64,000 nt of DNA. Source: an uncultured Cryomorphaceae bacterium (GTDB lineage Bacteria; Bacteroidota; Bacteroidia; Flavobacteriales; Schleiferiaceae). The first letter of the stretch is position 1. Every line of letters starts with the position of its first letter. The DNA is taken from NCBI GenBank assembly GCA_913009655.1, contig CAJVWI010000008.1:1-64000 (forward strand). The letters are read 5' to 3'. Positions 3,967 through 63,287 of this stretch are shown here, in pieces. The notes under the pieces are model-generated. The model saw nothing but the letters and a program-made list of their open reading frames with translations, searched no databases and was not told the DNA's origin. The translations under genes and the position numbers were made by a program.

Positions 3967-6335
3967 GGTCTTAAAAGTTGGACTACCGCTATTGCCATAG
4001 TACTAATTGATGCTAAAGTTCCAGAAACGGCGGCTAACTCGGCAGGGCTAACTTTTCTGCTATTGTCATATGATTTCTGTGGGACAATAATTTTTGAGCC
4101 CGGCACTACTCTTGGACGATATTTCCGGCCCAAGATCCTCCTGGTAGATCTTGTAGAACCATTGGGGTAAACAACAAACGCTTTGGCGCTTATACCTTCT
4201 TCTGAGACTCCTCCCGCCATTCGCAAGTACTCATTGAACGATTTTAGTAGTTCATATGAAACTGTTTTTGGAGCATTAACTTGGCCCTCAATTCTAATAA
4301 TTGTACTGCGTCCAGGAATATGAATTTCGTCAAGGTTTTGAACAATAAATTCTGTTCTGCCCAATAAGGCCCTTGAAGATATTGATATCGTGTCCAGTTG
4401 AAAGTATTTACCATCAACAAATTCAAGATTATTTAAGGTCAATGAGGAAGAGTCAGACTTAGAAATTTCAGATCTGCGAATCAAATAAGATCCATAAACA
4501 TCCGCAAAACTTGTTAACCCTCCTGTCCGAGAAATTATGTTAAAAAGATTTTCGTATGGCCTTTGCAAGCCAAAAGAACCTTGACTCATAACTTCTCCAT
4601 TAATATTTACAGATGCCACATTGTCACGAATACGAATCTTTTTTATAGAAACTAAATCTCCAGGTCTTAAAGCACTGAGCTTCGAGTTTTCCAACGTTAA
4701 TGATATAGTTTCATACTTTCTTAAACCACTTTTTTTCGTTGTCAACTCAATATTCGCCATATCAGCGTCGCTGGTAAATCCATTGGATAAGATTATCGCA
4801 TCGTATGCTGTAATTCCCGCACCCCATGGAATAATACCTGGGGAGACTACCTCTCCAGAAACTGTAAAAAATTCATCCCTTTGAAAAAATTGATTAAATG
4901 GTATCAATACTGAATCCCCTTGATGTATGATATGAGATGCAAACAAGGAGGCTGGAATATTTTTATAGGTTCTTACTCCCAATGTGTCTTTACTAGATAT
5001 TACAACTAAATCTCTAATGGCATCCTCTTTGTATCCGCCAGCAATATCTATCAAGCCACTTATTGTTAAACCTTCATATGAACCGTAGTAGCCAGACATT
5101 TGAATCCCCCCACCAATTGCAATTCGATTTCGATAACGGTCATTTAGAGTGTCTGCAATTATATGGTCACCGCCTTTTAAGACAAAAGAATCAAAATCAG
5201 ATTTAGCAATAGAGTATGAAACAAATCCATGCTCACCAATACGCTCTAAATATATTTTCTCCTTAAAAGCTTGTTCGGCAAACCCACCCGAAAGTGTCAG
5301 TATTGAACTAAGTAATTCACCTTCAATAATTTCGTAAGTCATGGGATTTCTGAACTCTCCGTCTAAAATGACTCTTCCATCATAAGTTGGGATAAAGACA
5401 ACGTCACCATCCTCGAGCCTTAGATCATCAGACTTCTTTCCGCTACCTAAGAGATCATACAAGTCTATTTCACCGACAATTTCGCCGTTTCTAATCTGCA
5501 AAATAGCTCTGTAGCTTCCTTTTGAAGCTGGACCCCCTGCCAAATGAAGAACATGATAGGGAGATGCTATACCTGGAACAGAGTAACGCCCAGGGACCTT
5601 GGCTCCAACAACCGTTATATCTACATTTCGAATCTGTTTGAGTGTTATCGAAAGCTCTGACTTTCCATTCTTGAGCGTGTTGTATCCATTCTTGCTCAGG
5701 CGCTGGAATATTTTCGCCTTTGCCTCCCTAAGGGTCAACCCTGAGATATTCACCACTCCAGAATAAGGGATATTTAGCGTACCGTCAACCCCTACTGGAA
5801 CATCGACATTTAATTCCTGATACCCATATATCGTCAATGAAAGAACATCGCCATTCCCCACTATATAAGTAGGGGGCGTCGCAATGGTAAGGTTTGGGGC
5901 AAAATCTAAATTTTTATTTCGAAACAAGCTCGCACCAAAAACATTTGAATCCAATGCGTACAGACGCTCTAGACCAATGAGCTGGCCAGATTCTTTTTGA
6001 TGGTCTTTTAATGAATCTTGAAGCCGTAATAATTTCATCGTCAATATTTGGGCCTGCTCCCCTGGGTCAATCTCCCCTGACTCTGCCAATCTTAATCTTA
6101 GCTTTCGTATCTCAGACTCTGACATACCTTTCTTTTCCAGATTTTTAAAAGCCTGAGAAGATGTCATGTTTTTCGATTCAAAACTTTGCTTAAATAGTAT
6201 TATCTCATCCTCTCCGAGCTGGTCAATACTGACAGAAGTAAGATTTTTTCTAGCAAATACGTTTTGAGCAGAAACAACTTCTGGCAGCAGAAAAAGTATT
6301 GCTATTAAGACTATAATTTTAGTTTTCATTTTCAA
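3963..6335 (-). CDS. Wza-like polysaccharide export protein with about six SLBB-like repeats
   Basis: 790 aa, signal peptide, Poly_export-like YIVGNGDVLSLTIYGYQELNVDVPVGVDGTLNIPYSG, then repeated 'v.Gev..PG.y' SLBB-type segments. Confidence 0.88.
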   Translation of the reverse strand: MKMKTKIIVLIAILFLLPEVVSAQNVFARKNLTSVSIDQLGEDEIILFKQSFESKNMTSSQAFKNLEKKGMSESEIRKLRLRLAESGEIDPGEQAQILTMKLLRLQDSLKDHQKESGQLIGLERLYALDSNVFGASLFRNKNLDFAPNLTIATPPTYIVGNGDVLSLTIYGYQELNVDVPVGVDGTLNIPYSGVVNISGLTLREAKAKIFQRLSKNGYNTLKNGKSELSITLKQIRNVDITVVGAKVPGRYSVPGIASPYHVLHLAGGPASKGSYRAILQIRNGEIVGEIDLYDLLGSGKKSDDLRLEDGDVVFIPTYDGRVILDGEFRNPMTYEIIEGELLSSILTLSGGFAEQAFKEKIYLERIGEHGFVSYSIAKSDFDSFVLKGGDHIIADTLNDRYRNRIAIGGGIQMSGYYGSYEGLTISGLIDIAGGYKEDAIRDLVVISSKDTLGVRTYKNIPASLFASHIIHQGDSVLIPFNQFFQRDEFFTVSGEVVSPGIIPWGAGITAYDAIILSNGFTSDADMANIELTTKKSGLRKYETISLTLENSKLSALRPGDLVSIKKIRIRDNVASVNINGEVMSQGSFGLQRPYENLFNIISRTGGLTSFADVYGSYLIRRSEISKSDSSSLTLNNLEFVDGKYFQLDTISISSRALLGRTEFIVQNLDEIHIPGRSTIIRIEGQVNAPKTVSYELLKSFNEYLRMAGGVSEEGISAKAFVVYPNGSTRSTRRILGRKYRPRVVPGSKIIVPQKSYDNSRKVSPAELAAVSGTLASISTMAIAVVQLLRP

Positions 6336-7188
6336 TTTTTTGTAAAATAGTTTGAAGATTTCCAGGGATTCCTTGTCCTTTGTTCCTTCTAAAATTTGAA
6401 TAAATGTAGGAATTCCATTTCAGTGGAAGCCTCCTAACAATTTGTTTGGCAACAACATGATAAATAAATTGACCATAATTAAAGAGACCTATTTGCCTTA
6501 GATAGTTCAATGCCTGAAGTTCTCCTCTTCTGTAACGGCTGGAACTCCTTCTGCTTACCAAGTCCTTTCCTCCGCGCATAAAAACATAAACGTTGGAGCT
6601 ATTGGATACATCAAGGCCATTAACCAGGAAAAGGCCCACAAGACAGTAGTCTTCATTGGCTTCAACTTGAGGGAAACCACCTAAACTGATAAATGCCGAC
6701 TTTTTAAAAGCAATACTCGGACCATTAAATGGATTTCTAGATGCGGAGAAACTTAATATTTCTGATTTTTTCAGTGGAACAGAACGAAGACCAAAATTTT
6801 TTTTAAAATCTATAGAAAATTCTTGTGCTTGCCCCCCGTGTAAATCCAAAGATTCCTGATTTTTAAAAGCAGACTCAGTAGATTCTATCCTATCTGAGGG
6901 ATACAAATCATCGGTATCAATTTTTAATACAATGTCAGTATTTATACTCTCTACTGCTTGGTTTAAAGCGTTTGGTAAGCCAAAAACATTTGATTCCTTG
7001 ACATGCAACCATTTAACTTTTGAAAAAGAATCACATACTTCAGATAGCTCCTTACCGATTTCCCCTTCTATGACAGCAACACATTCATCTAGAGGTCTCG
7101 TCTGGTTTATTAAAATACTATCGAGAGCTTCTCGCAAAAAAGTGGGATTGTCTCCTTTGTAGACTGAAAATACGCCGCCAATTCGCAT
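6319..7188 (-). CDS. Family 2 glycosyltransferase
   Basis: 289 aa, GVFSVYKGDNPTFLREALDSILINQTRPLDECVAVIEG...DIVLKIDTDDLYPSDR; GT-A fold DxD. Confidence 0.9.
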   Translation of the reverse strand: MRIGGVFSVYKGDNPTFLREALDSILINQTRPLDECVAVIEGEIGKELSEVCDSFSKVKWLHVKESNVFGLPNALNQAVESINTDIVLKIDTDDLYPSDRIESTESAFKNQESLDLHGGQAQEFSIDFKKNFGLRSVPLKKSEILSFSASRNPFNGPSIAFKKSAFISLGGFPQVEANEDYCLVGLFLVNGLDVSNSSNVYVFMRGGKDLVSRRSSSRYRRGELQALNYLRQIGLFNYGQFIYHVVAKQIVRRLPLKWNSYIYSNFRRNKGQGIPGNLQTILQKIENEN

Positions 7189-7194
7189 GGGGGG

Positions 7195-7767
7195 TTAACC
7201 TATTGCTTGGATTGTCTTCAACAAGATTTTCAAATCCATGAAAAAATTTGCCTTGCCCACATACTCAATATCGAAAGGTAATTTCTTTGCGGTATCATTG
7301 GGAGTTGCATCGGGTAAATTAATTTGAGCCAATCCTGTAATCCCTGGTAAGGCCTGATGTCTTATCTGATAATCCTTGTGCAGTGTTCCAAAACTCTTTA
7401 CCAAATGAGGCCTCTCAGGCCTTGGCCCTACCCAGCTCATATCTCCGGAGATAATATTAAATATCTGGGGTAATTCATCTATCCTCCATCTTCTTAGATA
7501 ACGACCAATCCAAAAGATCTGAGGGTCATTCTTCGTCATGCCTGCAAGGTCTCCACTGGCATCCTTAACCAGTGTTCGAAGTTTAAAAATTTTAAATTCC
7601 ACTCCCCCCTTACCTATTCTATTTTGGCTATATAAAATGCTCCCACCAGTTGTTATTAAGATAAGAATACCACCAAAGCAAATTAGCACCATCGCAAAAG
7701 GTAAAACCATTATTGAAATGAGCATGTCGAATGACCTTTTTAGACTGCTCGATAGATAGCTATTCAT
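7195..7767 (-). CDS. Initiating sugar transferase (monotopic phosphoglycosyl transferase, PglC/WcaJ-type catalytic domain)
   Basis: 190 aa, KRSFDMLISIMVLPFAM...GGSILYSQNRIGKGGVEFKIFKLRTL...RRWRIDELPQIFNIISGDMSWVGPRPERP; catalytic DE present. Confidence 0.93.
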   Translation of the reverse strand: MNSYLSSSLKRSFDMLISIMVLPFAMVLICFGGILILITTGGSILYSQNRIGKGGVEFKIFKLRTLVKDASGDLAGMTKNDPQIFWIGRYLRRWRIDELPQIFNIISGDMSWVGPRPERPHLVKSFGTLHKDYQIRHQALPGITGLAQINLPDATPNDTAKKLPFDIEYVGKANFFMDLKILLKTIQAIG

Positions 7768-7951
7768 AGGAAACGCAAAAGTAAGCTTCTCGGAGTATTT
7801 GAGCGCAAGGTTTGAGAAAAAAAATTAATGTAGCGCATAGTAAACATCGAGCAACCTTATGAATAACAAAAATAAGACAATTGTATCTCATATGTTATTA
7901 CTTGTATTGTAAAGCAAGTATTGTTTTTAGTTTTTTTTACTTAATTGAGTA

Positions 7952-9262
7952 TCATTTAAAATAATTTTTAACTAAAATCCATTTCCATTCATTGATATTC
8001 CAAAACTTTAGACCACGACTCTTACATGTTACACTGTAAAGGGTTAGCAAAATTATTTCTGTCAGTATTAAAGATATTATCGCTCCATGTAAGCCATATA
8101 ATGATATTAGCAATAGATTGAGAGCTATCGCTATAATCGAAGCAATTATAGTCACCCTAAGAACATCATTGTCATAGCCCAAATTCAGTAAGAATGATGA
8201 TCCTATCAGATGATTCAAAACTGAAATCAAGGGCACAAATGCAATAAGCTGATATACGCCTGAAGCATCTATAAATTCACTCCCAAAAAAGAAATCAATG
8301 AGCCAGGGAGAAATAAACCATAACGAGCCACTGGCTACAGCAATAATAACAAGGAGTAACGGTATCGATTGGTTTAACAATTTAGTTCCTTCTTTAATGT
8401 CAGACCTCAACTGCACTCCTAGTACAGGAAAAAGAGCCTGAAGTATTGGGACCGAAATGAGAACTTGAATAACATTCATCATCCTCCAACCAAGTGAAAA
8501 AATACCCACTTGAGTGTATGATACAAATGACGCGAGAATAATAATGCTAATAGTTTGATTGAGATTATTAACAAGGCTTGACAGAAAAACCAAGCGCTCA
8601 CTCCAGAGTCTTTCAAGCATTGACCGATTAAAAATAATTCTCATGGGCATTTTTAGCCTTATCCTCAAATACAATAAACTCAGTAATGCGGAAAAAATAG
8701 TAGAAAGGGATATAAAAAGAGGATACAAGTAACTATCATTTACTGAACGTATCAATAGAAATACAAGTATTAAAAAAAAAGTCTTTGGAATGATATTTAA
8801 CCATACCAGCTCCTTCATCCTTCTTATGCCCTGAACAAACCAATTTGGCATTATCGCCCAGCCTGCTGCTACTGCAAATGTTGACCAAGCAACTTTATAA
8901 TGCTCAATGCTATCCGGAATCAAAAAGAGGAAGATAGAATATATGAATCCAGCAAATAACAGCAGTAGAATCTTAGATGATTGAATTTCTACAAAAAAAA
9001 TCTTTAGCGCCGCGTCATTATTTTCTAAATCAGGAACTTTGCGTGTAGCTGAAGCGTCAAATCCGTAGATGACAAACAGAGTAAAGTAACCTACCAAGAC
9101 AGAGTAAAAATTAATGACACCAAACTCTTCAGTACCGATAACTCTACCAACAAAAGGAAGAGTGATAATGGGAAAGGCATAATTGAGAAATTGAAGAACA
9201 CCGTTAGATATGACATTGCTTCCAACACCATAACCACCTTTACCTTCTTTTCCTTTAACCAT
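7952..9262 (-). CDS. Oligosaccharide flippase (Wzx, MOP superfamily)
   Basis: 436 aa multi-pass protein: NVISNGVLQFLNYAFPIITLPFVGRVIGTEEFGVINFYSVLVGYFTLFVIYGFDASATRKV. Confidence 0.9.
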   Translation of the reverse strand: MVKGKEGKGGYGVGSNVISNGVLQFLNYAFPIITLPFVGRVIGTEEFGVINFYSVLVGYFTLFVIYGFDASATRKVPDLENNDAALKIFFVEIQSSKILLLLFAGFIYSIFLFLIPDSIEHYKVAWSTFAVAAGWAIMPNWFVQGIRRMKELVWLNIIPKTFFLILVFLLIRSVNDSYLYPLFISLSTIFSALLSLLYLRIRLKMPMRIIFNRSMLERLWSERLVFLSSLVNNLNQTISIIILASFVSYTQVGIFSLGWRMMNVIQVLISVPILQALFPVLGVQLRSDIKEGTKLLNQSIPLLLVIIAVASGSLWFISPWLIDFFFGSEFIDASGVYQLIAFVPLISVLNHLIGSSFLLNLGYDNDVLRVTIIASIIAIALNLLLISLYGLHGAIISLILTEIILLTLYSVTCKSRGLKFWNINEWKWILVKNYFK

Positions 9263-46189: not shown

Positions 46190-49100
46190 GTGAAAAAAAT
46201 TTACACACTACTCTTACTTGCTTTTTCTTTTGTAAGTCAAGCACAGAATTCATCAGCATATCAATCAGTTGAGAACAATTCTCGTGTCATTTTTCAATCT
46301 GGAACTTATTCATTGCCTTTATTGTCCGAAATTACAATTAAGAGTTTTAATAAATCTGAAAGAAATTTAGATAAAGTTGTTAGAATTATATCTTCAAAAA
46401 AACCCTTGAGCAAAAAGGCTTGGATAGAGTTAGAAGAAATGGGAGTTAAAAATATTGGATATCTTCCAATAAGTTCATATTTGGTTTTAATGCCAAAAAC
46501 GAATAAAGAACTTCTTTTGGGGTTCAGGAAAAATGGTATTATCGGAATAGGTTCTCTCTTACCGGAAATGAAACTTTCAGAGCAGTTAGCTAGTGGGAAT
46601 GTTCCTGAATACATTTGGGTAGGATCAAAATGGGAACTTTATATCGAGGGAATACCCTCAATCGATTGGTCCAATGTTATTGATGATTTAAATAACCTTG
46701 ATATCGATATTTTAGGCACAGAATTCAAGGGGCTTAAAATTTTAATTTCACCAGAAGATGTTAATTCCCTAGCGAATCATCCTTTCATTACTTACATCCA
46801 ACAGAAAGAGGCTCCGGCTGAAACAGAGAATAAAATTGGAATTAAAAACCACAGATCAAATGCCTTAAGAGTTTCATACTTAGGAGGGCGGGATTACGAT
46901 GGAACTGGTGTTGTCGTAGGACACGGAGATGATGGAGATATTGTGCCTCATATTGACTTCACAGGTAGAATTCTAGCGAATAAATCCGGCCCCTCAAATG
47001 GGGCTCATGGTGACCATGTTGCAGGAACAATAATGGGAGGGGGCAATTTGGATCCTGATGGTGAAGGTCAAGCTCCTGGATCAAAATTGGTATACTATGA
47101 CTATCCTGACAACTTAAATGACATTGATGTAGATTATAATTTGTACGGAATAAGAGTTACTGCATCTTCGTACTCTAATGGTTGTAATGCTGGATATACA
47201 GCATTTACGCGTCAGGTGGACTTAGATGCTATTCAGCACCCAAGCTTAACTCACGTCTTTTCTGCTGGAAATAATGGTAATTCTAATTGTAATTATGGCG
47301 CAGGGTCTGGCTGGGGAAATATAACTGGCGGCCACAAGCAGGGCAAAAATGTTTTGGCTACAGCAAATGTTACAGGAGCTGATATTATTGCTGGATCAAG
47401 CAGTAGAGGACCAGCTCATGATGGACGTATCAAGCCGGATATCGCAGCCCTAGGAACGAACGTATTCTCTTGTCTCGCTCCAAATGACTATCGTTCCATC
47501 ACGGGAACATCTATGGCATGTCCAGGAATAGCGGGCGTGATGGCTCAGCTCTATGATGCTTATAGGCAAAACAATAATGGAACTGACCCTGAAGGAGGTT
47601 TAATGAGATCTCTATTGACCAACAATGCAGATGATCTGGGAAATCCAGGCCCGGACTTTAAATACGGTTATGGCAGAGTAAATGGACTTAGGGCCGCAAA
47701 AGTTATCGAAATGGGTTGGTTTCATAAGGACAGTGTTGCGCAAGGCGAAACAGATACTGTTAGCATAAACGTTCCCTTAGGCAGTGGTATTGGAGAACTT
47801 AGAGTGATGTTACATTGGACAGATCCTCAAGCTACTGTAAATGCTGGACGCGCATTGGTAAATGATTTAAATGCTACACTTAAATTAGATGCTGCAGCCT
47901 GGCTACCTTGGGTTTTAGACCCAACACCAAACGCAACGGCATTAAACTCAAATGCAGTTCGAGCCGTGGATAGTTTGAACAACTCTGAACAATTCACTTT
48001 ATCCCAGCCAACTGGAGGCACCTACAAATTATTAGTCAATGGAAATTCTATACCTGTTGGACCTCAAGAATACTGGGTTACTTGGACAATAGTAAATAAT
48101 GAAGTGGAGCTGACTTATCCAACTGGCGGAGAAGTAATACCCCCACTTACAACAATTCCTGTAAGATGGGATGCTCCGGATGGCACTGGGACTTTCAGTC
48201 TCGAATACAGCACTAATGGAGGAAATACTTTTACCCAATTTGCTACTGCATCTGCAACTAGCCGGCAGGCGAACTTTCTCACTCCCAACGGTGCAGGAGA
48301 TAGCCTGGTATTCAAAGTGCAAAGGGGAACTCAGCAAGATTTGAGTGATACTCCCATTGGGCTTATTGGATATCCTGGAAATCTTCAACTTAATTGGGCT
48401 TGTCCCGACTCGTTCAATGTGAGCTGGAATTCAGTTAATAATGCTTCAGGTTATGTCGTTTATATATTAGGTCAAGAATACATGGATCCTATCGATACAA
48501 CTGCTAGCAACTCTTATACATTTTACAATATGAATCCATCCAATACAATATGGTGGAGTGTCGCCGCCTTAACCCCTGGAGGAAAGGCAGGCAAAAGAGC
48601 AGTTGCGGTTGAAAAAATACCAGGACTGCAAGGCTGCTTATTAACAAATGATGTTGTCATGACGTCAGTTTTAAGCCCTTCAGACAATATTCCAGATTGT
48701 CAAAGTACCAGCAACTTACCAGTATCCATTTTAATTGAAAATGGTGGTTTAGACTCGGTATTTACTGTCCCAATGGCTTATCAGTTTGGTAGCAATCCAA
48801 TTGTCAGAGATACAGCCTATGTAAGCTTAGCATCAACAAATACTCATGTATTCACATTTGACACAGCAGTAAACGTTAGTTTGATAGGATCGTATTCAAT
48901 CAAAGTATGGATGGAGTCTTTAATTGATCAAAATAGATGGAATGATACATTGATTTCCTTCTTTGAAATAGTGCAATCTGACTCGACTTATGCAATGCCT
49001 TACGCTCAAAATTTTGATAGTTTTTCAACTTGCGCAACCAGTAATAACTGTGGTTCCACTATTTGTAATTTAAGTGGGCACATGACCAACTGGAACAATG

Positions 49101-51082
49101 GCTCGCAAGATGATATAGATTGGAGAACTAATTCGGGAGGAACGCCATCTTCAGGCACCGGTCCATCCTCTGGACATACAAGTGGCTCTGGAAATGATAG
49201 GTATTTATACCTCGAGGCCTCATCCTGTTATGAAAATACTGCAATTCTCACAACACCATGTATTGATATGACGCAGACAATAATTCCTGAATTAGAGTTC
49301 TGGTCTCACATGTCAGGAAATTCGGATGGTGAACTGCATATTGATGTTTTGAGCCAGGGACAATGGTATAATGATTTCGCCCCAGTTATTTCCACTGTAG
49401 CAGGATCCAATTGGACTCAACAAAATGTGTCTTTAGCTGCATTTGCTGGGGATGTTATTGTTGTCAGGTTCCGTGGGAAAACAGGTGATGCTTTTTCAAG
49501 TGACGTTGCAATTGACGATATCTCAATCACAGAAGTTACAAGTGCTCCAACGGCAAACTTCAGTATAAGCAATTCACTTCCATGCCTGAATCAAACAATT
49601 TTCTTCATTGACAACAGTTTAAATGGACCAAATCAATGGGTTTGGAATATTAGTCCTAGTTCAGGATATTCATATATGAATGGAACAGATTCAACAAGTC
49701 AGTATCCGCAAATTTCTTTTAACAATTTTGGCACTTACAGTATTAGTTTGACGGCTAGTAACAATTACGGATCAAACACCTCAAGTTCTTCTTCTATAAT
49801 AGTAAATGGTGGATCCAACTTACCGTTCAACCAAGGATTTAATAATTTTTTACCATCTGGTTGGGAGCTTGAAAACCCTGATAACTCTACAACTTGGGAT
49901 CAAAAAAATGCAATAGGAAGCAACGGACAAAATACCTCAACTGTATATGTGTCCAATGTCAACTACAATGCACCTCTTCAAGAGGATTATCTAATAACCC
50001 CAGGAATCGACTTAACAGGAGCCTCACAACCTGTTTTGATTTTTGATGTCGCTTATGCCACATATAGCTCAAATTATTCTGATGGACTTAGAGTTGATGT
50101 CTCTTCAAATTGTGGCAGTTCTTGGAGTCCTGCAGGATACCTCAAATCCGGAACTGTATTGGCTACAGTACCGGCCCAAACTTCTTCATTTACCCCGAAT
50201 AGTTCGGGTCAATGGCGTGAGGATACTGTTTTTCTTGCAACCTCATTATCTGGACCTAGCATCAAATTTAGATTTGCTGCAATAAATGGTTATGGCAATA
50301 ACTTATATATTGATAATGTTAGGGTTTATAATCTTGGAGCCAGTGCGCCAAATGCATCTATAAATAGCTCAGTATCCAGCGCGACATGTATTAATGATAC
50401 AGTTGTTTTCCAGGCTATGAATCCAGGGACGGCAATCGCTTCTTGGGACTTTGGTGCAGGCTCAATTCCAAGTAGCGCAAATGGTGCGGGACCCCATTCC
50501 ATTGTATATTTTTCAAGCGGACCAAAATCAGCGACTCTTTCTCTTACAAATTCCGGTGGGACAGATATCGATACGTTAGGATTTAATGTTGGTCAACCTG
50601 TCATTGCTGGATTTTCCTATAATACCAGTGGTCAAACCGTAAGTTTTACAGATAATTCAAATGGCATTGGGACCCAGTGGAATTGGGATTTTGGTGATGG
50701 ATCAATTAGCAGTCTTCAAAATCCAACACACTCCTACCCATCGACTGGTGGATCTTTTGATGTCTATTTTGCAACATACAATGACTGCGGTTGGGATACA
50801 ACAACCTCAACTCTTCAGATATCAGGAGTTGGAGCCGATGAACCTATCGCAATTGATTGGTCCTTATCGCCAAATCCCAGCAATGACAGGATTAATATAG
50901 TCAGTCCTTTTAATGATCATATTGACAATGTCCAAGTAATTGATGCTTTAGGTAGAGTGGTTTTCAACGGTAAGCTATCATCAGAGAACTCTTTAAATAT
51001 CGAGTCATTTGCCGCTGGGCAGTATTTAATACGGATTCATGCAAAGGGAACAAGAAAAGTGCTTCCTTTCATAAAAAAATAA
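46190..51082 (+). CDS. Secreted S8 (subtilisin-like) serine peptidase with MAM-like, PKD and T9SS type A sorting domains
   Basis: 1630 aa, GTG start; signal peptide; VVVGHGDDGDIVPHIDF, NGAHGDHVAGTIMGGG, ITGTSMACPGIAGVMAQ; GPSSGHTSGSGNDRYLYLEAS...SDVAIDDISI; C-term WSLSPNPSNDRINI...FAAGQYLIRIHAKGTRKVLPFIKK. Confidence 0.93.
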   Translation: MKKIYTLLLLAFSFVSQAQNSSAYQSVENNSRVIFQSGTYSLPLLSEITIKSFNKSERNLDKVVRIISSKKPLSKKAWIELEEMGVKNIGYLPISSYLVLMPKTNKELLLGFRKNGIIGIGSLLPEMKLSEQLASGNVPEYIWVGSKWELYIEGIPSIDWSNVIDDLNNLDIDILGTEFKGLKILISPEDVNSLANHPFITYIQQKEAPAETENKIGIKNHRSNALRVSYLGGRDYDGTGVVVGHGDDGDIVPHIDFTGRILANKSGPSNGAHGDHVAGTIMGGGNLDPDGEGQAPGSKLVYYDYPDNLNDIDVDYNLYGIRVTASSYSNGCNAGYTAFTRQVDLDAIQHPSLTHVFSAGNNGNSNCNYGAGSGWGNITGGHKQGKNVLATANVTGADIIAGSSSRGPAHDGRIKPDIAALGTNVFSCLAPNDYRSITGTSMACPGIAGVMAQLYDAYRQNNNGTDPEGGLMRSLLTNNADDLGNPGPDFKYGYGRVNGLRAAKVIEMGWFHKDSVAQGETDTVSINVPLGSGIGELRVMLHWTDPQATVNAGRALVNDLNATLKLDAAAWLPWVLDPTPNATALNSNAVRAVDSLNNSEQFTLSQPTGGTYKLLVNGNSIPVGPQEYWVTWTIVNNEVELTYPTGGEVIPPLTTIPVRWDAPDGTGTFSLEYSTNGGNTFTQFATASATSRQANFLTPNGAGDSLVFKVQRGTQQDLSDTPIGLIGYPGNLQLNWACPDSFNVSWNSVNNASGYVVYILGQEYMDPIDTTASNSYTFYNMNPSNTIWWSVAALTPGGKAGKRAVAVEKIPGLQGCLLTNDVVMTSVLSPSDNIPDCQSTSNLPVSILIENGGLDSVFTVPMAYQFGSNPIVRDTAYVSLASTNTHVFTFDTAVNVSLIGSYSIKVWMESLIDQNRWNDTLISFFEIVQSDSTYAMPYAQNFDSFSTCATSNNCGSTICNLSGHMTNWNNGSQDDIDWRTNSGGTPSSGTGPSSGHTSGSGNDRYLYLEASSCYENTAILTTPCIDMTQTIIPELEFWSHMSGNSDGELHIDVLSQGQWYNDFAPVISTVAGSNWTQQNVSLAAFAGDVIVVRFRGKTGDAFSSDVAIDDISITEVTSAPTANFSISNSLPCLNQTIFFIDNSLNGPNQWVWNISPSSGYSYMNGTDSTSQYPQISFNNFGTYSISLTASNNYGSNTSSSSSIIVNGGSNLPFNQGFNNFLPSGWELENPDNSTTWDQKNAIGSNGQNTSTVYVSNVNYNAPLQEDYLITPGIDLTGASQPVLIFDVAYATYSSNYSDGLRVDVSSNCGSSWSPAGYLKSGTVLATVPAQTSSFTPNSSGQWREDTVFLATSLSGPSIKFRFAAINGYGNNLYIDNVRVYNLGASAPNASINSSVSSATCINDTVVFQAMNPGTAIASWDFGAGSIPSSANGAGPHSIVYFSSGPKSATLSLTNSGGTDIDTLGFNVGQPVIAGFSYNTSGQTVSFTDNSNGIGTQWNWDFGDGSISSLQNPTHSYPSTGGSFDVYFATYNDCGWDTTTSTLQISGVGADEPIAIDWSLSPNPSNDRINIVSPFNDHIDNVQVIDALGRVVFNGKLSSENSLNIESFAAGQYLIRIHAKGTRKVLPFIKK

Positions 51083-53226: not shown

Positions 53227-53844
53227 ATGGAACTCCCGTCAAAATCAATGGAACGAGCGGTACAAGAATTGTCCAGACTACCAGGAATAGGTAGGCGTTC
53301 TGCACTTCGGTTAATTCTACATCTCCTTCGCCAAGGAAATGATAGAATGGAGAATTTAGCAACTTCAATACAAGATTTGAGCAGTAATTCCCAATTCTGC
53401 GAGAACTGTCATAGTATAAGCGATGTGGCATTGTGCAGCATATGCAATGACCCAAAAAGAGATGGTAAATCTATATGTGTAGTTGAAGATATTCGAGATG
53501 TTCTTGCTTTAGAGAATACTCATGCTTTTCGTGGGAAATACCATGTCCTTGGTGGACTAATATCTCCAATGGATGGTCTGGGGCCTGGGGATTTAACAAT
53601 TGATGAATTGATAGAAAAAATAAAAAGCAATGGGGCAGACGAGGTTATCATGGCTTTGAGCTCCACAATGGAAGGAGATACAACGGCTTTTTATATTTAC
53701 AGAAAGATAGGAGACCTTTCTTTGAAATTGACATCTATAGCACGGGGCCTGCCAATAGGTGATTCGCTTGAGTATGCTGATGAAGTAACGCTCAGTAGAT
53801 CATTACAGCAGCGTGTTCTATTTGAATCAACATTGAGTAAATAA
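53227..53844 (+). CDS. recR: Recombination protein RecR
   Basis: 205 aa, MERAVQELSRLPGIGRRSALRLILHLL, CENCHSISDVALCSIC zinc finger, CVVEDIRDVLALENTHAFRGKYHVLGGLISPMDGLGP TOPRIM. Confidence 0.97.
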   Translation: MELPSKSMERAVQELSRLPGIGRRSALRLILHLLRQGNDRMENLATSIQDLSSNSQFCENCHSISDVALCSICNDPKRDGKSICVVEDIRDVLALENTHAFRGKYHVLGGLISPMDGLGPGDLTIDELIEKIKSNGADEVIMALSSTMEGDTTAFYIYRKIGDLSLKLTSIARGLPIGDSLEYADEVTLSRSLQQRVLFESTLSK

Positions 53845-53848
53845 AAAG

Positions 53849-55681
53849 ATGGATTTATCTGTTATAATAGTCAGCTATAATGTAAAAACATACTTAGACC
53901 AGTGCTTAATATCAGTGGAACGGGCTTCAGGAAATTTGAATGTTGAGGTAATTGTTGTAGATAATTGCTCAAAAGACGATACTTTAAAACATATAAAAAA
54001 TAAATTTCCATGGGTTCATTGTATTGAAAACAAAGTAAATCTTGGATTTGGAAAGGCAAATAATTTAGGCGCAAAAAAAGCTATTGGGGATTATGTGCTT
54101 TATTTAAATCCTGACACTGTCGTTGCTGAAGATAATTTTAAGCTAGCAATAAGTCAATTCAAAGACCATAATAACTTGGGGTCTCTTGGATGTCGAATGA
54201 TTGATGGTAAAGGTGATTTTTTACCTGAATCTAAGCGAGGATTCCCTACACCTTCGGTTGCGCTTTATAGATTATTTGGATTAGCTAAGCTTTTTCCTAA
54301 AAGTAAAAGATGGGCTGGTTATTATGTCGGTCATATTGATGAAGCAGAAAATGCTGCTGTAGAAATTCACTGTGGAGCCTGGATGATGCTATCTAGAGAG
54401 GCCCTTATTAAAAGCGGTGGTTTCGATGAAGCCTTTTTTATGTATGGAGAAGACATAGACTTATCCCATAGAATAGGAGAATTAGGTTTTGAAACTCGAT
54501 ATTTTTCTAATAGCCCAGTAATTCACTACAAGGGAGAAAGTACCAAGCATGCATCATGGACGTATGTCAAAAACTTCCATAAGGCCATGGATATTTTTGC
54601 TAAAAAACACTTTACAAGCGGAGCCAAAGCATTCAGTCTTCTAATTCGCACAGGAATATACGCAAAGGCCTTTTCATCAATCCTGAAACGATCGATGGAA
54701 CTAATTATTCCTATGGTTTTTACAGCGGCCATAGGTTACTTTTTAGCAAATGAATTTACCAGTTACTGGGAAACGGTTCATCGCTATCCTAATGGAGGAG
54801 AATATCCGATTATTTATCGTCAAATAATTCTTCCAATATATTTAACAGTATGGATTCTATGTATGTTTATTAGCGGCGCCTATTCGATTAATTCTTCTAT
54901 TTTCAGGTATTTTTCAGGTTTCATTCTATCAACACTTACCCTACTCTCATTATATGCACTTCTTCCTTTAGATTTGCGATTTTCGAGAATATTAATTCTA
55001 ATTTCGTCACTTCTTTTTTTTATTTCATTTCTTAGCATCAAAGCATTTCTAAAGTCTAGATCAGCAGGAGGGATATTTGGGCTAGTTAATGAAACAATCG
55101 CGCATATTGACAGAGATGATAGCAGAAAACTACCCTTATCATCAAACTACGATATTTCAATTAATGAAATTGTTGAGCAATTGGATTACTTAAAACCCAC
55201 AGAAATTCATTTCTACCCGGTAAATATAAGTTTTGACAAGATCATTAGAACAATGATCCTGTTAAGAAAAAGAAACTTCAAGTATAGAATGGTTTATTCT
55301 TCGTGGACACTTGGGAGCGATAATTATCAAAGGTCGTCCGATTTAGCATTTCCTGCTCTCTCAAAGCCATCCTTGCGCAGAGCAAAATATTTACTAAGTG
55401 CATTTTTTACAGTTTTTATAATAATCACTCTTCCTATTTGCGCATGCTTCCCCAGAGGCAGGTATGCATTGAAAAACTTGCCTGCAATTCTTCTAGGGAA
55501 GAAAATATGGGTAGGTTACATAAGTATTGAATCAAGTGATTTACCATTCTTAAAAAAAGGTGTATTCCGCCATACTGATTCTTTGGGTGATAAAGAATTT
55601 CAAAAATTTGCAGATATAAGGTATGCTCATCACTGGAGACCAGAATTTGACATATTTGCTCTTTTTAACGGCTCGATTTAA
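53849..55681 (+). CDS. GT2 glycosyltransferase fused to a four-TM/Rossmann-like region and a truncated sugar-transferase-like C-terminus
   Basis: 610 aa, GT2 (SVIIVSYNVKTYLDQCLISVERAS...NVEVIVVDNCSKDDTL...GDYVLYLNPDTVV), then TM segments, Rossmann-like FGLVNETIAHIDRDD..., and RRAKYLLSAFFTVFIIITLPICACF...LKNLPAILLGKKIWVGYISIESSDLPFLKKGVF. Confidence 0.85.
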   Translation: MDLSVIIVSYNVKTYLDQCLISVERASGNLNVEVIVVDNCSKDDTLKHIKNKFPWVHCIENKVNLGFGKANNLGAKKAIGDYVLYLNPDTVVAEDNFKLAISQFKDHNNLGSLGCRMIDGKGDFLPESKRGFPTPSVALYRLFGLAKLFPKSKRWAGYYVGHIDEAENAAVEIHCGAWMMLSREALIKSGGFDEAFFMYGEDIDLSHRIGELGFETRYFSNSPVIHYKGESTKHASWTYVKNFHKAMDIFAKKHFTSGAKAFSLLIRTGIYAKAFSSILKRSMELIIPMVFTAAIGYFLANEFTSYWETVHRYPNGGEYPIIYRQIILPIYLTVWILCMFISGAYSINSSIFRYFSGFILSTLTLLSLYALLPLDLRFSRILILISSLLFFISFLSIKAFLKSRSAGGIFGLVNETIAHIDRDDSRKLPLSSNYDISINEIVEQLDYLKPTEIHFYPVNISFDKIIRTMILLRKRNFKYRMVYSSWTLGSDNYQRSSDLAFPALSKPSLRRAKYLLSAFFTVFIIITLPICACFPRGRYALKNLPAILLGKKIWVGYISIESSDLPFLKKGVFRHTDSLGDKEFQKFADIRYAHHWRPEFDIFALFNGSI

Positions 55682-55709: not shown

Positions 55710-57056
55710 ATGTTTGAATTAACAATGCCCAAAATGGGCGAATCTGTAGCTGAAGCAACCATCACTGAATGGTTAAAAAACGAAGGTGACTCTGTATCAA
55801 TGGATGAATCCTTATTAACCATTGCCACCGATAAAGTTGATAGTGATTTGCCATCTCCTGTATCTGGAGTTTTATCAAAAATTCTTTTCAAAGTAGATGA
55901 TGTAATTCAGGTAGGTCAGGTTATTGCTCATATTGCGACTGAAGGAGACACTATCACTACAATTGAAAAAATTGAAGTAAAAGATGATTTAAAAAAGTCT
56001 GAAGAGCACTTAGATTCATTGCCCTTAAAAAACAGGGAGAAAGAAGAAGTATCGACTGCAAATCTTGAATTCAAATCAAGTATTTCTAGAGAAAGTGCCG
56101 GTAGGTTTTACAGCCCATTGGTTCGAAGTATTGCCCAAGAAGAAGGGTTAAGTCAGCAAGAATTGGACAATATCAGAGGAAGCGGTAATGAAGGACGCGT
56201 AACAAAACACGATTTAATTGCTTTTTTAAATAAAAAGTTAACTGAAAAATTATCCAATCCTTCAATTACGAAAATAGATACTGAGAAAAAAATTGAAGCA
56301 AATGAAGCTCCGAAAAATCTATCAGCTAATTTAATTAGCAGTTTACCTGGTGATGAAATTGTAGAAATGGATAGAATGCGAAAACTCATTGCTGATCACA
56401 TGGTTATGAGTAAACATACATCTCCGCATGTGACATCATTCGTCGAAGCCGATGTAACCGCTTTGGTACTTTGGAGAAAAAAGGTAAAAAACAACTATGA
56501 AGATAGGGAAAACAGCAGATTGACTTTTACTCCCATATTTTTAGAAGCTGTTATTCGAGCAATTAAAGATTTTCCAAATATTAATGTTAGTGTTGATGGG
56601 AATAAAATCATTTCCCATAAACCAATTAATATTGGAATGGCAACTGCATTGCCTAATGGTAATTTAATTGTTCCAGTTATCAAAAATGCAGATAGATTTA
56701 ATCTTTCAGGTCTAGCCAAAGAGGTTAATGAACTTGCCGATAATGCGCGGAATAACAAGCTTAAACCGGATGATATAAAAGGAGGAACGTATACTGTAAC
56801 AAATGTTGGGACTTTTGGCAATGTTATGGGAACGCCCATAATTAACCAGCCGCAAGTTGCGATTTTAGCCTTAGGGGCTATTCGAAAAATGCCCGCAGTA
56901 ATTGAAACTCCTGATGGAGATGCAATAGCAATTCGTCATAAAATGTTTTTATCACATTCTTATGACCATAGAGTTGTCGACGGTGCCTTGGGAGGAATGT
57001 TTGTTAAAAGAGTTGCCGACTATTTAGAAAATTGGGATAGTGAACGCGAAATATGA
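55710..57056 (+). CDS. 2-oxo acid dehydrogenase E2 component (dihydrolipoamide acyltransferase)
   Basis: 448 aa, lipoyl domain (LLTIATDKVDSDLPSPVSGVL), E3-binding region (SPLVRSIAQEEGLSQQELDNIRGSGNEGRVTKHDLIAFL), catalytic LSHSYDHRVVDGALGG. Confidence 0.95.
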   Translation: MFELTMPKMGESVAEATITEWLKNEGDSVSMDESLLTIATDKVDSDLPSPVSGVLSKILFKVDDVIQVGQVIAHIATEGDTITTIEKIEVKDDLKKSEEHLDSLPLKNREKEEVSTANLEFKSSISRESAGRFYSPLVRSIAQEEGLSQQELDNIRGSGNEGRVTKHDLIAFLNKKLTEKLSNPSITKIDTEKKIEANEAPKNLSANLISSLPGDEIVEMDRMRKLIADHMVMSKHTSPHVTSFVEADVTALVLWRKKVKNNYEDRENSRLTFTPIFLEAVIRAIKDFPNINVSVDGNKIISHKPINIGMATALPNGNLIVPVIKNADRFNLSGLAKEVNELADNARNNKLKPDDIKGGTYTVTNVGTFGNVMGTPIINQPQVAILALGAIRKMPAVIETPDGDAIAIRHKMFLSHSYDHRVVDGALGGMFVKRVADYLENWDSEREI

Positions 57057-58478: not shown

Positions 58479-61400
58479 ATGAAATACAGTATTCGAATAA
58501 TATCTACACTCGTAGTCTTCTTGTTTTCTTTCTCTGGCTTTGCTCAGACAAGCCCTATTACCGTTGTATTTGAGGAGAAATTCGACCCGCCATCTGGCCC
58601 TGATTCTGTGACGACTTTTCATACGACGCCAGGAACTAATGTTCCATACTGGAATGACACATCAGCCTTTTCTATTTCAGCACCAAACTCTTATCATGCC
58701 AAAATAATCCCATTTGACTCAATTATTTTTCAAACTGATACATTTTCTACTGTAGGCAATGTTTTCGTTAGTTTAACTTTTGCCCAAATATGTAAGGTCC
58801 ATTTTGGCCAGCATGCATACATAAGAGTTTCTAATGATAACGGGGCAACTTGGACACGTCTGAATGGATCCCACTACAGTGGTGCCTCGCCAGCTTTTCC
58901 CACTGCTGGTTATTTTAATGAACTATCATATGCCAATCCTAATGCATCTCCTTACTGGGGTGGTCTTACAACCGTAGGCACGGGTAACTCACCGTCTCAG
59001 TCCTGGTGGGTGGGTGAAACCTTTGACATTTCTAGCATCATAGGAAATGGACCCAATGGAACAGGTAATGGATATTCTAATTGTATGATTCAATTTGTTT
59101 TAGAATACAGAAGCCCATTTGGAACTGCAGACCCAGCAGGGTGGTTTATTGATAATCTCAAAGTTGAAGCGGCTCCGTGTGAATTAGTTCCTCCAACTTT
59201 AACTTTTAATCTCAACCCTAAAAGGGAACCGATTGGCCCAAGATATCAAAGCAACCAAGAGATAAGGTTAAAAGCGACAGATTTAGGTTCTGGGATTGAT
59301 TCTGTAGTACTTTTTCATAGATTAAATAGTGGCCCATGGGATACAGTTCAAATGTCTAGTAGCATGAGTGGAGCGTGCCCAGATTCCGCTCAATATTTTC
59401 ATACATTGACTAGTTTAATTGTTGGAGATTCAGTGGATTGGTTCGTTGAGGTTTATGATTGTGCCTGTCCCAATATGGTTCGCTCCCCTTCTTTAAATTC
59501 AGCCTCGCAATACAATACATTTTGGATAGATCCCTCTCCTCCTGCTATATGCGGAATAACTACACCAACTAGCTTCCCGTATCTAGTAACAAGTTTTCCT
59601 TGGGTCGAGAATTTCTCATCTATAGATTGGATTCAAGGCTCTGGTGTTGGTGGAATTGGAACCTCACACAGAGGAGTTTTTCCTCAAGGGAATCCTCCTT
59701 CAGGAAAAAATTGGCAAGTATCGCCAAATACAAGTAATACAGGCTTCGCTTGGTCTGTTAGATTAGGTCAAACTGGAACTTTCAATACTGGTCCAAGTGG
59801 AGATCACACTACTGGAGGCGGTAAATATCTTTATACCGAGGCCTCACAGGGTAATGCCAACAATAATACCACAGTTATAACCCCGTGCATCAAATTAACC
59901 GGATTAAATCATGCTGTTTTAGAATTTTGGTATCATAAGTTTGGACAACACATGGGTAACATGCGAGTGGATATTGATACTGGGTCTGCTTCACCCTCAT
60001 GGGTTAATGCAATCGCTGTTATTCCTGGACAATTTCAGACTTCCCAAACACAACCCTGGGAAAAAATGCTAGTAAATCTTGATCCTTATTTGGGAAAAAT
60101 AATAAGGGTTCGATTTTTAGGGAATAAAAATAATTCGTCTTCTAATGATCTTGGAGATATGGCTTTGGATGATATTAGCATTTATGAACCAGATCCAGCG
60201 GATATCGAAATGCTTGCTGTTTACAAACCGCAAAATGGATTCTGCCAATATACGACAAGCGAAGATGTTCGAGTTCATATAAGATCTGAAGGCTTCTTCC
60301 CGATCGATACAATACCATTAGCCTATTCGGTAACAAATTTAACTACCAATACTACGGTGATAGGCAGAGACACCTTATACCAAGCTCTAGGGTTGGGAGA
60401 TACAGCTTCTTACACTTTTATTCCAAAAGCTGATCTTAGTGCTTTTGCCAATTACGATGTATATGCTTGGTCTGAAGCTCCAGGAGATCCAAATACTTCC
60501 AATGATAGCATCGGACCAATTTTTATAGAACACAAAGCTCCGATAAATCAGTTTCCGCATATCCAAGATTTTGATGGACCGGGTTGGTCACCAGGAAATG
60601 GAACTTCTGCAAACCCCGGGACCTTCAACACCTCAGACTGGGAAGTATTACCGGCATCAAATTCAGGAAACTATGCTTTCATGATAGGAAATGATCTAAC
60701 ATCTTCTTTTTCAACTGGACCTCGTTGGTCTAGAGGTCGAAAAGGCAATTACATGTATGCTGAAGGTTCTTATGGCAGCAATGGCCCCGCTACAATATTT
60801 GCAACTACCAAATGTGTTGATCTTTCATCCCTAACAAATCCGGTATTAACATTTTGGTATCACATGTACGGCTCTGATATAAACTTGTTAAATGTCCAAG
60901 TCATCCCAAATGGCAGCAATACATGGCAAACAGTTACTGGGGCACCGATTATAAATCAACAGCAATCAAAAGAAGTTGATGATTGGAAATTCAAAATAGT
61001 AGACTTAGCAGCTTACGCTGGTGATATTGTTAATATAAGAATCCTTGCAAGAAAATCAGGTTCAGGCGCTTCGGCAGACATTGCATTAGATGATTTGTAT
61101 ATATATGACCAACCAGCATCTGATGTTGGAGTAAGTGTAGTTTCATCGCCGCTTAATTCAGTCAATTTACTCAATCCCCAAAATGTAATATTTAAGGTTT
61201 ATAATTATGGAACTGTAACCCAATCTAATATTCCCATTACATACACAATACAAGATTTATGTACTCCCTCTAATTCTGGAACATATACCACCACGTATTC
61301 AGGAACTCTAGCCCCAGGGTCAGAAACAACAATAACCGTTGCTTCATTTCCAACTTATTACAATGGTGATTTTGAAGTGAAAGCATGGACAACATTAACA

Positions 61401-63287
61401 GGAGATGGATTTGCTATCAATGATACCGCTTCAAAAATATCTTCTGGAGCCACTTCATACCCGATTGCATTTGGGCCAGTTGATTTTGATAATTGCGTCG
61501 GTGACGAGTTTAGTTTCTTTGGCCAAGGAGGTTCTGGTACTCTTCAAATGTGGGAATTTGGGACACCCGCAAAAGGTAGTGGATGGAATAGCGCTGCATC
61601 AGGAACTAATTGTTGGATCACAGGAATAAAAGATAACTATCAACCAGGAATGACTGAAATCCTAAGAATTCCAACACTTACAGAATTTGACACAACGGTT
61701 GCAGCAGAATTACGATTCAAACATAAATTTGAATTTGCGCCGAGCGATGGAGGTGTAATTGAATATTTTCAAAATGGTAACTGGAACGCCCTAGGAAATG
61801 CATCTATGTCGGTAGGATATAATTGGTATGGTTCGATTTATGGATCTGCTGCTGTCCCTTCTTTAAATAGCCCAGGTTGGCTTGGAAACAGTGGAGGCCA
61901 ATGGATTACCTCTTCAATCCCTTTAAGCGTTTGGGACTATTCGACAAATCCAATTCAATTAAGAGCCCGTATGGTTTCATCTGCTGGAAGTAGTGCCAAA
62001 GGATGGGCAATTGATGACTTTGAAGTCTATGTGCCGCCTCAAAACTCAGCAGCTCCTGTCGAAATTGAAACTTTAGAATACCTAATCATTCCAGGAGATA
62101 CATCTCATTTGAGAGTTCGTATAGAAAATTCGGGAGCAAAACTTCTAGACTCATGTAAAGTGAGATATAAAGTCAATGGAGGTGCATGGACAAGTTTTGA
62201 AACGGTTGTCTTCAAAAATAAAGCTGGTGCAACTGCCCCTATGATGCGTGGACAACGTCAATGGTATAATTTAGATCAGGTTTGGGTCAACAACGGTGCA
62301 GGCGCATATAATATATGTGTTGAAACCTCCAGACCAAATGCTAAAGGAGACAATCTGGTTTCTGATGATTCTCTTTGCTTGTCTTTTACAACATTAGATA
62401 GAATCAATATTGATTTGTCTAACCCATATTGTAACGACTTTGAAGATCCAACAATTGCTTCATGGCTTCCTCTTCACCCTTCTGTTAAAACATTACAACA
62501 TGATTGGGAATTTGGAACTCCGAACCAAACTGATATTACAGGAGCTTCCAGTGGAACAAAGGCTTGGATGACCCGCCTTGATAGTAATTATAATCATATG
62601 GGGCAAAGTGCTCTGCATACTCCATTTTTTGTTTTAGACACATTTAAAGTATATGACCTAAGTTTCGATCACAGTATGATTACTGAACTATATCATGATG
62701 GAGGAAATGTAGATTGGTCTTATGATGGTGGTATTACATGGCATACTCTAGGGAGCACCTTAACAAATGGACTCTGGTTCAATACTACGAACGTAACATC
62801 ATTAGACATTATCCGCCCAGGTTGGTCTGGAAACACAAATGGATATATTACTTCAACAATTAAGTTTACAGTTGATAAGCCAGGAACTTTAGTTTTACGA
62901 TTTAGGTTTGGATCAGATTATACCTATCATGATCAGGGTTGGGCAATTGATAACTTCTGTCTTGAAGAGACGCCCGCTGGAACACCTGCAGACATTGTTG
63001 GAATAGGGATTCCGGAAATAGTGATTCCAGGATTTTTCTTGGGTCATATTTCTCCAAATCCCTTATCCAAACAGGGCTTTCTTAATTTTAACGCATCAAG
63101 ACAATTAAATGTTGACTTCTCTATCTCTAACATGAATGGTCAAACCATCATGAAGAAATACATCAACGGAGAAGAAGGCTACAATAAGGTACTTTTTGAT
63201 GCAAGTGAATGGCCTAATGGCTTATACTTTATTGAGGCTCTAGTTGAAGGAAAGTCCGTCGTAAGAAAGTTTATAGTGCAGCACTAA
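58479..63287 (+). CDS. Secreted multidomain protein with MAM-like modules and T9SS type A sorting domain
   Basis: 1602 aa, signal peptide; NTGPSGDHTTGGGKYLYTEAS...VLEFWYHKFGQHMGNMRVDI...LGDMALDDISIYEP; repeated GWAIDDFEVY/GWAIDNFCLE; C-term ISPNPLSKQGFLNF...WPNGLYFIEALVEGKSVVRKFIVQH. Confidence 0.9.
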   Translation: MKYSIRIISTLVVFLFSFSGFAQTSPITVVFEEKFDPPSGPDSVTTFHTTPGTNVPYWNDTSAFSISAPNSYHAKIIPFDSIIFQTDTFSTVGNVFVSLTFAQICKVHFGQHAYIRVSNDNGATWTRLNGSHYSGASPAFPTAGYFNELSYANPNASPYWGGLTTVGTGNSPSQSWWVGETFDISSIIGNGPNGTGNGYSNCMIQFVLEYRSPFGTADPAGWFIDNLKVEAAPCELVPPTLTFNLNPKREPIGPRYQSNQEIRLKATDLGSGIDSVVLFHRLNSGPWDTVQMSSSMSGACPDSAQYFHTLTSLIVGDSVDWFVEVYDCACPNMVRSPSLNSASQYNTFWIDPSPPAICGITTPTSFPYLVTSFPWVENFSSIDWIQGSGVGGIGTSHRGVFPQGNPPSGKNWQVSPNTSNTGFAWSVRLGQTGTFNTGPSGDHTTGGGKYLYTEASQGNANNNTTVITPCIKLTGLNHAVLEFWYHKFGQHMGNMRVDIDTGSASPSWVNAIAVIPGQFQTSQTQPWEKMLVNLDPYLGKIIRVRFLGNKNNSSSNDLGDMALDDISIYEPDPADIEMLAVYKPQNGFCQYTTSEDVRVHIRSEGFFPIDTIPLAYSVTNLTTNTTVIGRDTLYQALGLGDTASYTFIPKADLSAFANYDVYAWSEAPGDPNTSNDSIGPIFIEHKAPINQFPHIQDFDGPGWSPGNGTSANPGTFNTSDWEVLPASNSGNYAFMIGNDLTSSFSTGPRWSRGRKGNYMYAEGSYGSNGPATIFATTKCVDLSSLTNPVLTFWYHMYGSDINLLNVQVIPNGSNTWQTVTGAPIINQQQSKEVDDWKFKIVDLAAYAGDIVNIRILARKSGSGASADIALDDLYIYDQPASDVGVSVVSSPLNSVNLLNPQNVIFKVYNYGTVTQSNIPITYTIQDLCTPSNSGTYTTTYSGTLAPGSETTITVASFPTYYNGDFEVKAWTTLTGDGFAINDTASKISSGATSYPIAFGPVDFDNCVGDEFSFFGQGGSGTLQMWEFGTPAKGSGWNSAASGTNCWITGIKDNYQPGMTEILRIPTLTEFDTTVAAELRFKHKFEFAPSDGGVIEYFQNGNWNALGNASMSVGYNWYGSIYGSAAVPSLNSPGWLGNSGGQWITSSIPLSVWDYSTNPIQLRARMVSSAGSSAKGWAIDDFEVYVPPQNSAAPVEIETLEYLIIPGDTSHLRVRIENSGAKLLDSCKVRYKVNGGAWTSFETVVFKNKAGATAPMMRGQRQWYNLDQVWVNNGAGAYNICVETSRPNAKGDNLVSDDSLCLSFTTLDRINIDLSNPYCNDFEDPTIASWLPLHPSVKTLQHDWEFGTPNQTDITGASSGTKAWMTRLDSNYNHMGQSALHTPFFVLDTFKVYDLSFDHSMITELYHDGGNVDWSYDGGITWHTLGSTLTNGLWFNTTNVTSLDIIRPGWSGNTNGYITSTIKFTVDKPGTLVLRFRFGSDYTYHDQGWAIDNFCLEETPAGTPADIVGIGIPEIVIPGFFLGHISPNPLSKQGFLNFNASRQLNVDFSISNMNGQTIMKKYINGEEGYNKVLFDASEWPNGLYFIEALVEGKSVVRKFIVQH

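Follow-up and report, generated by a model that had tools for sequence, protein, structure and literature searches.

A family 2 glycosyltransferase domain fused to a phosphoglycosyl transferase scaffold without its catalytic core in Bacteroidota

RESULTS

Gene and domain layout of the fusion protein

The window analyzed here is a 64,000-nucleotide stretch of DNA from an uncultured Cryomorphaceae bacterium (contig CAJVWI010000008.1). An open reading frame that starts with an ATG at position 53849 and ends with a stop codon at 55681 encodes a protein of 610 amino acids, with full-length orthologues of up to 84% identity. A sequence-only reading of the window had described the product as a family 2 glycosyltransferase (GT2) fused to a gutted phosphoglycosyl transferase (PGT) scaffold. 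The features of the locus, together with a PGT gene used for comparison, are as follows.

53849 to 55681, plus strand: fusion protein of 610 amino acids, GT2, four membrane helices, Rossmann-like region and core-less PGT (open reading frame, full-length orthologues, AlphaFold2 mean pLDDT of 85)
53849 to 54622, plus strand: GT2 catalytic domain, residues 1 to 258 (PF00535, residue counts, Foldseek matches to GT2 structures)
54623 to 55063, plus strand: four-helix membrane bundle preceded by a juxtamembrane helix, residues 259 to 405 (AlphaFold2 helices, alignment, hhalign)
55064 to 55357, plus strand: Rossmann-like region of the CoA_binding_3/PF13727 type, residues 406 to 503, eroded in the window's genus (hhalign, PF13727 in relatives, full domain in the L222 model)
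55358 to 55447, plus strand: re-entrant-type PGT membrane helix with a Pro hinge, residues 504 to 533 (hhalign, helix break at 526/528 in the model, P529)
55448 to 55465, plus strand: junction that lacks about 60 residues of the PGT catalytic core, the Asp-Glu dyad among them
55466 to 55678, plus strand: remnant of the PGT C-terminal tail (hhalign, PF02397 in L139)
53227 to 53844, plus strand: recR, upstream neighbor (orthologue beside the fusion gene at most loci of the same genus and in many Bacteroidia)
55710 to 57056, plus strand: E2 (2-oxoacid dehydrogenase acyltransferase) gene, downstream neighbor (family identity from sequence)
7195 to 7767, minus strand: intact small PGT, for comparison (PF02397, E = 7e-52)

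The small PGT belongs to an exopolysaccharide-type cluster (2926 to 9262) with a Wzz-like protein, an SLBB/export protein, a GT2 and a flippase. Elsewhere in the window, the C termini of two long proteins (46190 to 51082, 1630 aa, subtilase-like; 58479 to 63287, 1602 aa) resembled, by eye, Bacteroidota secretion sorting tails.

The N-terminal half is a GT2 domain

A Pfam scan of the single sequence matched residues 4 to 186 to PF00535 (E = 8.8e-24), which bore out the GT2 assignment. When both full-length structural models were compared with the PDB using Foldseek, the matches listed were all GT2-type folds, a result that speaks neither for nor against the PGT part. The protein shares the GT-A fold and the catalytic residues of this family, the nearest solved folds including RmlT, TarS, WrtF and GalNAc-T enzymes, but differs in that its C-terminal half is a degenerate PGT instead of a carbohydrate-binding, lectin or GT2-type membrane module. 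D38, D89, E201, D202 and H226 were conserved in 100% of the 193 homologues, which points to a catalytic role. By these sequence criteria the protein is a member of the GT2 family and apparently an active glycosyltransferase.

The C-terminal half is homologous to Lg-PGTs

In single-sequence scans, residues 280 to 610 alone gave no Pfam match and no relevant NCBIfam match. We therefore rely on profiles. We built a profile from 58 fusion proteins, starting at residue 280, and used hhalign to compare it with 27 intact large monotopic PGTs (Lg-PGTs) from the window's relatives. The match had a probability of 99.8% (E = 2e-28) and covered the entire C-terminal half; it began at the first membrane helix, reached the final helix and contained a single large gap. 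The gap corresponded to intact sequence from just past the re-entrant helix to DELPQ, and pairing restarted at NVL.GDMS.VGPRP. When segments were aligned separately, the probabilities were 90.6% for the membrane bundle (E = 1e-6; decoy, 0.6%), 98.6% for the Rossmann region (E = 9e-16), 96.1% for the membrane helix and 97.2% for the tail (E = 4e-11), versus 0.6 to 1.6% for reversed decoys (all valid ones below 2%). Thus, every part named by the sequence-only reading was recovered, namely, a four-helix and Rossmann-like region as in WbaP-type enzymes, a PGT-like membrane helix and a tail like the GDMSWVGPRP end, and the gap fell exactly where it had placed the loss of the catalytic core with its DE motif.

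More of the PGT survives than that reading had noted. In the tail, AILLGKKIWVGY corresponds to NVL.GDMS.VGPRP of intact Lg-PGTs, LPFLKKGVF corresponds to the KPG(I/L)TG-like strand (KPGITG), and DIRYAHHWRPEFDIFAL corresponds to YY.EN.S...D.KIL of the intact enzymes; the terminal helices of PGTs (YY..N.S...D..IL) read IRYAHHWRPEFDIFAL in the window protein. The deletion that it had seen by comparison with the small PGT is real, although the proper comparison is with Lg-PGTs, of which this genome has two (L031 and L032). The bundle is homologous to that of Lg-PGTs and contains a conserved YWE..HR..GG.YP loop and an RFSR motif. This loop (residues 304 to 320, about 54758 to 54808), between membrane helices 1 and 2, was nearly invariant in Bacteroidia fusions; it is periplasmic by the model topology and was absent from the intact Lg-PGTs compared.

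Among relatives, the Pfam models expected of an Lg-PGT did give matches, although the window protein itself, with its eroded Rossmann domain, had no single-sequence match to PF13727. This family matched 43 of the 44 distant homologues and 20 of the 30 nearer ones, and PF02397 matched 38 of the 44 homologues from the deeper classes (model positions 103 to 178 in L139). TIGR03025 (EPS_sugtrans) was found in all 44 distant and in 28 of the 30 nearer members. A profile of the deeper-class proteins hit WbaP structures (8t53 and others) among PDB sequences; the lowest E value was 1e-32, and the aligned blocks were separate and left out the core. On the basis of these profile comparisons, the C-terminal half is derived from an Lg-PGT.

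The catalytic core is absent from fusion homologues across Bacteroidota

The helix K and the W of WVG were separated by a median of 42 residues in the 193 fusions versus 103 in intact enzymes. No core motif was found in any of the 193 homologues, close or distant, from across Bacteroidota, whereas all 27 intact Lg-PGT controls carried it; the truncated architecture is therefore conserved in the phylum. Apparent DE motifs in L203 and L230 were placed in the Rossmann domain, and DE pairs in L153 and L232 were chance occurrences outside any DELPQ context. A longer span from the helix start to WVG, 63 to 77 residues instead of about 42, was seen in L102, L103, L106 to L108, L136, L141, L145, L146 and L149, also with no core motif.

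Orthologues were found in genomes of the same genus, the same family and the same order, as well as in the named genomes of Prolixibacter, Aureispira, Flavisolibacter and Acidiluteibacter. In a sample of the phylum, the C-terminal profile matched 226 of 396 genomes, a count that includes intact PGTs and truncated Flavobacteriaceae-like forms. A tree of 111 sequences, built by a quick method with a midpoint root, separated core-less from intact proteins by one branch (SH-aLRT of 100), a pattern compatible with a single ancient loss of the core.

For seven close pairs, dN/dS was 0.02 to 0.28 in the dead PGT segment versus 0.02 to 0.12 in GT2, so purifying selection acts on the dead segment, which is not drifting freely. 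Within the helix and tail, Y592 was invariant, D601 was conserved in 192 and P529 in 172 of the 193 homologues, and K513 was near-invariant.

The dead module has eroded in some lineages

In the window's genus, the Rossmann domain has lost its first half, whereas relatives keep the whole domain, and in the window's clade the motif at the helix start (KR..D) is eroded. Flavobacterium-like genomes encode only GT2 and a Rossmann remnant, ending at FIIGSNSKNERGE. Their orthologues L093 (5185 to 6351) and L094 (8448 to 9611), of 387 to 388 aa, have lost the PGT helix and the tail; an intact Lg-PGT gene lies about 4 to 5 kb away. Another Flavobacteriales genome has GT2 alone at the recR-E2 locus (L095, 7049 to 7912). 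L095 and the truncated L093 share this locus position and an orthologous GT2, but the dead PGT has been lost wholly or partly. The presence of such forms at the same locus shows that the dead module is dispensable in those Flavobacteriales, and in view of its erosion along lineages we regard it as useful but replaceable. The apparent loss of the gene in two genomes of the same genus (G020 and G021) is uninformative because recR is missing too, and the locus may be unassembled.

Predicted structure and topology

AlphaFold models had a mean pLDDT of 85.4 for the window protein and 90.4 for the Acidiluteibacter homologue. In both, the GT2 fold was accompanied by a long juxtamembrane helix, a set of four membrane helices and a Rossmann-like region, and further by a helix that breaks at the Pro hinge, a short strand and the terminal helices. 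The PGT-like helix is thus predicted for the window protein itself, and the Rossmann-like region is complete only in the model of its relative; in the window protein, pLDDT was below 50 at residues 406 to 435. Given four membrane passes, GT2 and the PGT remnant would both lie on the cytoplasmic side. Since charge counts agree only partly with this placement, we treat the topology as inferred.

In deeper-branching classes, the fusion gene is often in an operon with an intact Lg-PGT gene

In Bacteroidia, the fusion gene often adjoins recR and/or an E2 acyltransferase gene, and no PGT gene lies beside it, the window included. In some Bacteroidia, a GT-C-like multimembrane protein of about 450 to 490 aa is encoded directly 5' of it (L026, 3 to 1478; L180, 1571 to 3001), with a weak or absent GT87 match.

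For the deeper-branching classes, 101 genomes were checkable, having both the fusion and an intact Lg-PGT listed; in 77 of them the two genes lay no more than 10 kb apart. They were then always on the same strand, and the PGT gene was a median of 1.8 kb from the C-terminal match. By a rough estimate assuming three PGT genes in 3.5 Mb, about 2% would be expected by chance. The typical operon order was PGT, (DegT), DPM-like GT2, fusion and accA. The DPM1-like GT2 (L238, 5374 to 6093) and accA, a fatty-acid gene, flank the fusion gene in many deeper-branching genomes. In L238, the intact Lg-PGT and the fusion form an operon pair at 3963 to 5363 and 6103 to 8091. A double-PGT protein of 827 to 831 aa, in which a polytopic PGT (PF00953, MraY/WecA type) is joined to an intact Lg-PGT (PF13727 plus PF02397), was also encoded in an operon with the core-less fusion (L235, 5526 to 8009; also L236 and L237).

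The operon with an intact Lg-PGT is the strongest functional clue. It suggests that the fusion acts together with the priming enzyme, the simplest role being that of a glycosyltransferase for an early subsequent step, and it makes docking on a lipid-linked acceptor, as the sequence-only reading had proposed, more plausible.

DISCUSSION

The protein is not a PGT, because the defining catalytic core was tested for and is absent. It shares with WbaP and other Lg-PGTs (PF13727 plus PF02397; TIGR03025, TIGR03022 and TIGR03023) the four-helix bundle, the Rossmann-like domain, the re-entrant-type helix with a Pro hinge and the C-terminal strand and helices, but it is without the core of about 60 residues and its Asp-Glu dyad, and a GT2 domain has been added in front. 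To our knowledge, no core-less monotopic PGT has been described. No account of a core-less, inactive or pseudo PGT was found in the open-access literature searched; the sequence-similarity-network survey that defined bifunctional monoPGTs (Bi-PGTs) may mention such proteins. A catalytic core bearing an Asp-Glu dyad is described as a constant feature of monotopic PGTs (PMC10519829). Like Bi-PGTs (PMC10942596), the fusion has a second functional domain joined to a monoPGT; however, that class is defined around the catalytic core, which was absent from all of the fusion homologues examined, so membership was rejected.

We consider that the protein is probably an active GT2 carried on a catalytically dead Lg-PGT, whose remains would serve as a membrane and assembly scaffold for an enzyme acting early on polyprenyl-PP-sugar. 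The four-helix bundle, the re-entrant helix and the tail would hold GT2 at the inner membrane, on its cytoplasmic face, where the Lg-PGT releases undecaprenyl-PP-sugar, and GT2 would add the next sugar. By pairing with an intact PGT, or by self-pairing, the dead module may allow the primed lipid to be passed on; mixed dimers or shared membrane sites would bring GT2 next to the PGT product. WbaP dimerizes through a swapped hairpin of its Rossmann-like domain (DUF) and helix 3 of the bundle (PMC10942596), and these dimerizing parts are the ones kept, which is why pairing can be envisaged. MonoPGTs recruit UndP near the re-entrant helix, which in PglC runs along bound undecaprenyl phosphate, and Arg88 and Arg145 of PglC are basic residues important for UndP binding (PMC10519829). 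These two positions are in or near the parts lost from the fusion, making specific polyprenol binding by the remnant uncertain and speaking against a complete lipid site. Both the binding of an acceptor and the pairing with a partner are features that we infer. The recurrence of the core-less form, often beside a working PGT, suggests that the dead part has been retained to serve as a platform for docking or assembly. A more specific version, which we put forward tentatively as a possibility, is that these proteins are phylum-wide pseudo-PGT subunits whose mixed dimers with intact Lg-PGTs would feed undecaprenyl-PP-sugar straight to GT2 and couple the first two steps of glycan assembly.

The dead PGT part could instead do no more than anchor GT2 in the membrane and let it self-associate, without helping it to find either the PGT product or a PGT partner. 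We regard this as rather unlikely, although what survives is the membrane-binding and dimerizing parts of WbaP, GT2-only forms remain at the same locus in some Flavobacteriales, and Bacteroidia have no PGT neighbor. A generic anchor needs neither a Rossmann domain nor tail motifs, yet both are kept phylum-wide, and strong clustering with intact PGT genes is not expected of one. It is improbable that the fusion is chiefly a regulatory pseudosubunit, controlling priming through mixed dimers with the intact Lg-PGT, e.g., by nucleotide sensing in the Rossmann domain. The shared operon would fit, as would the binding of uridine nucleotides by the WbaP DUF and the inhibition of WbaP by UMP (PMC10942596), but the invariant GT2 residues point to catalysis and the window's genus has an eroded Rossmann domain. 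It is very improbable that the C-terminal half is a mere vestige, left to decay neutrally after the PGT activity of an ancestral bifunctional GT2-PGT had been lost; the lineages do form a stepwise series (full remnant, eroded Rossmann domain, Rossmann remnant only, GT2 only), but the low dN/dS of the dead segment and the near-invariance of Y592, D601, K513 and P529 speak against it. A local deletion, frameshift or assembly artifact, for which no supporting evidence was found, is scarcely credible, since the core-less form recurs in independently assembled genomes, including those of cultured strains.

The fusions represent an old and widespread lineage in Bacteroidota, in which the Lg-PGT scaffold was kept, the core was dropped and a GT2 with intact catalytic residues was attached. 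The fusion offers a separation-of-function tool for the role of the noncatalytic parts of Lg-PGTs. Should the scaffold form pairs with intact PGTs, the fusion would be a natural and testable example of a substrate being passed between the enzymes of the first two steps in lipid-linked glycan assembly, as well as an example of pseudoenzyme use in the monotopic PGT superfamily.
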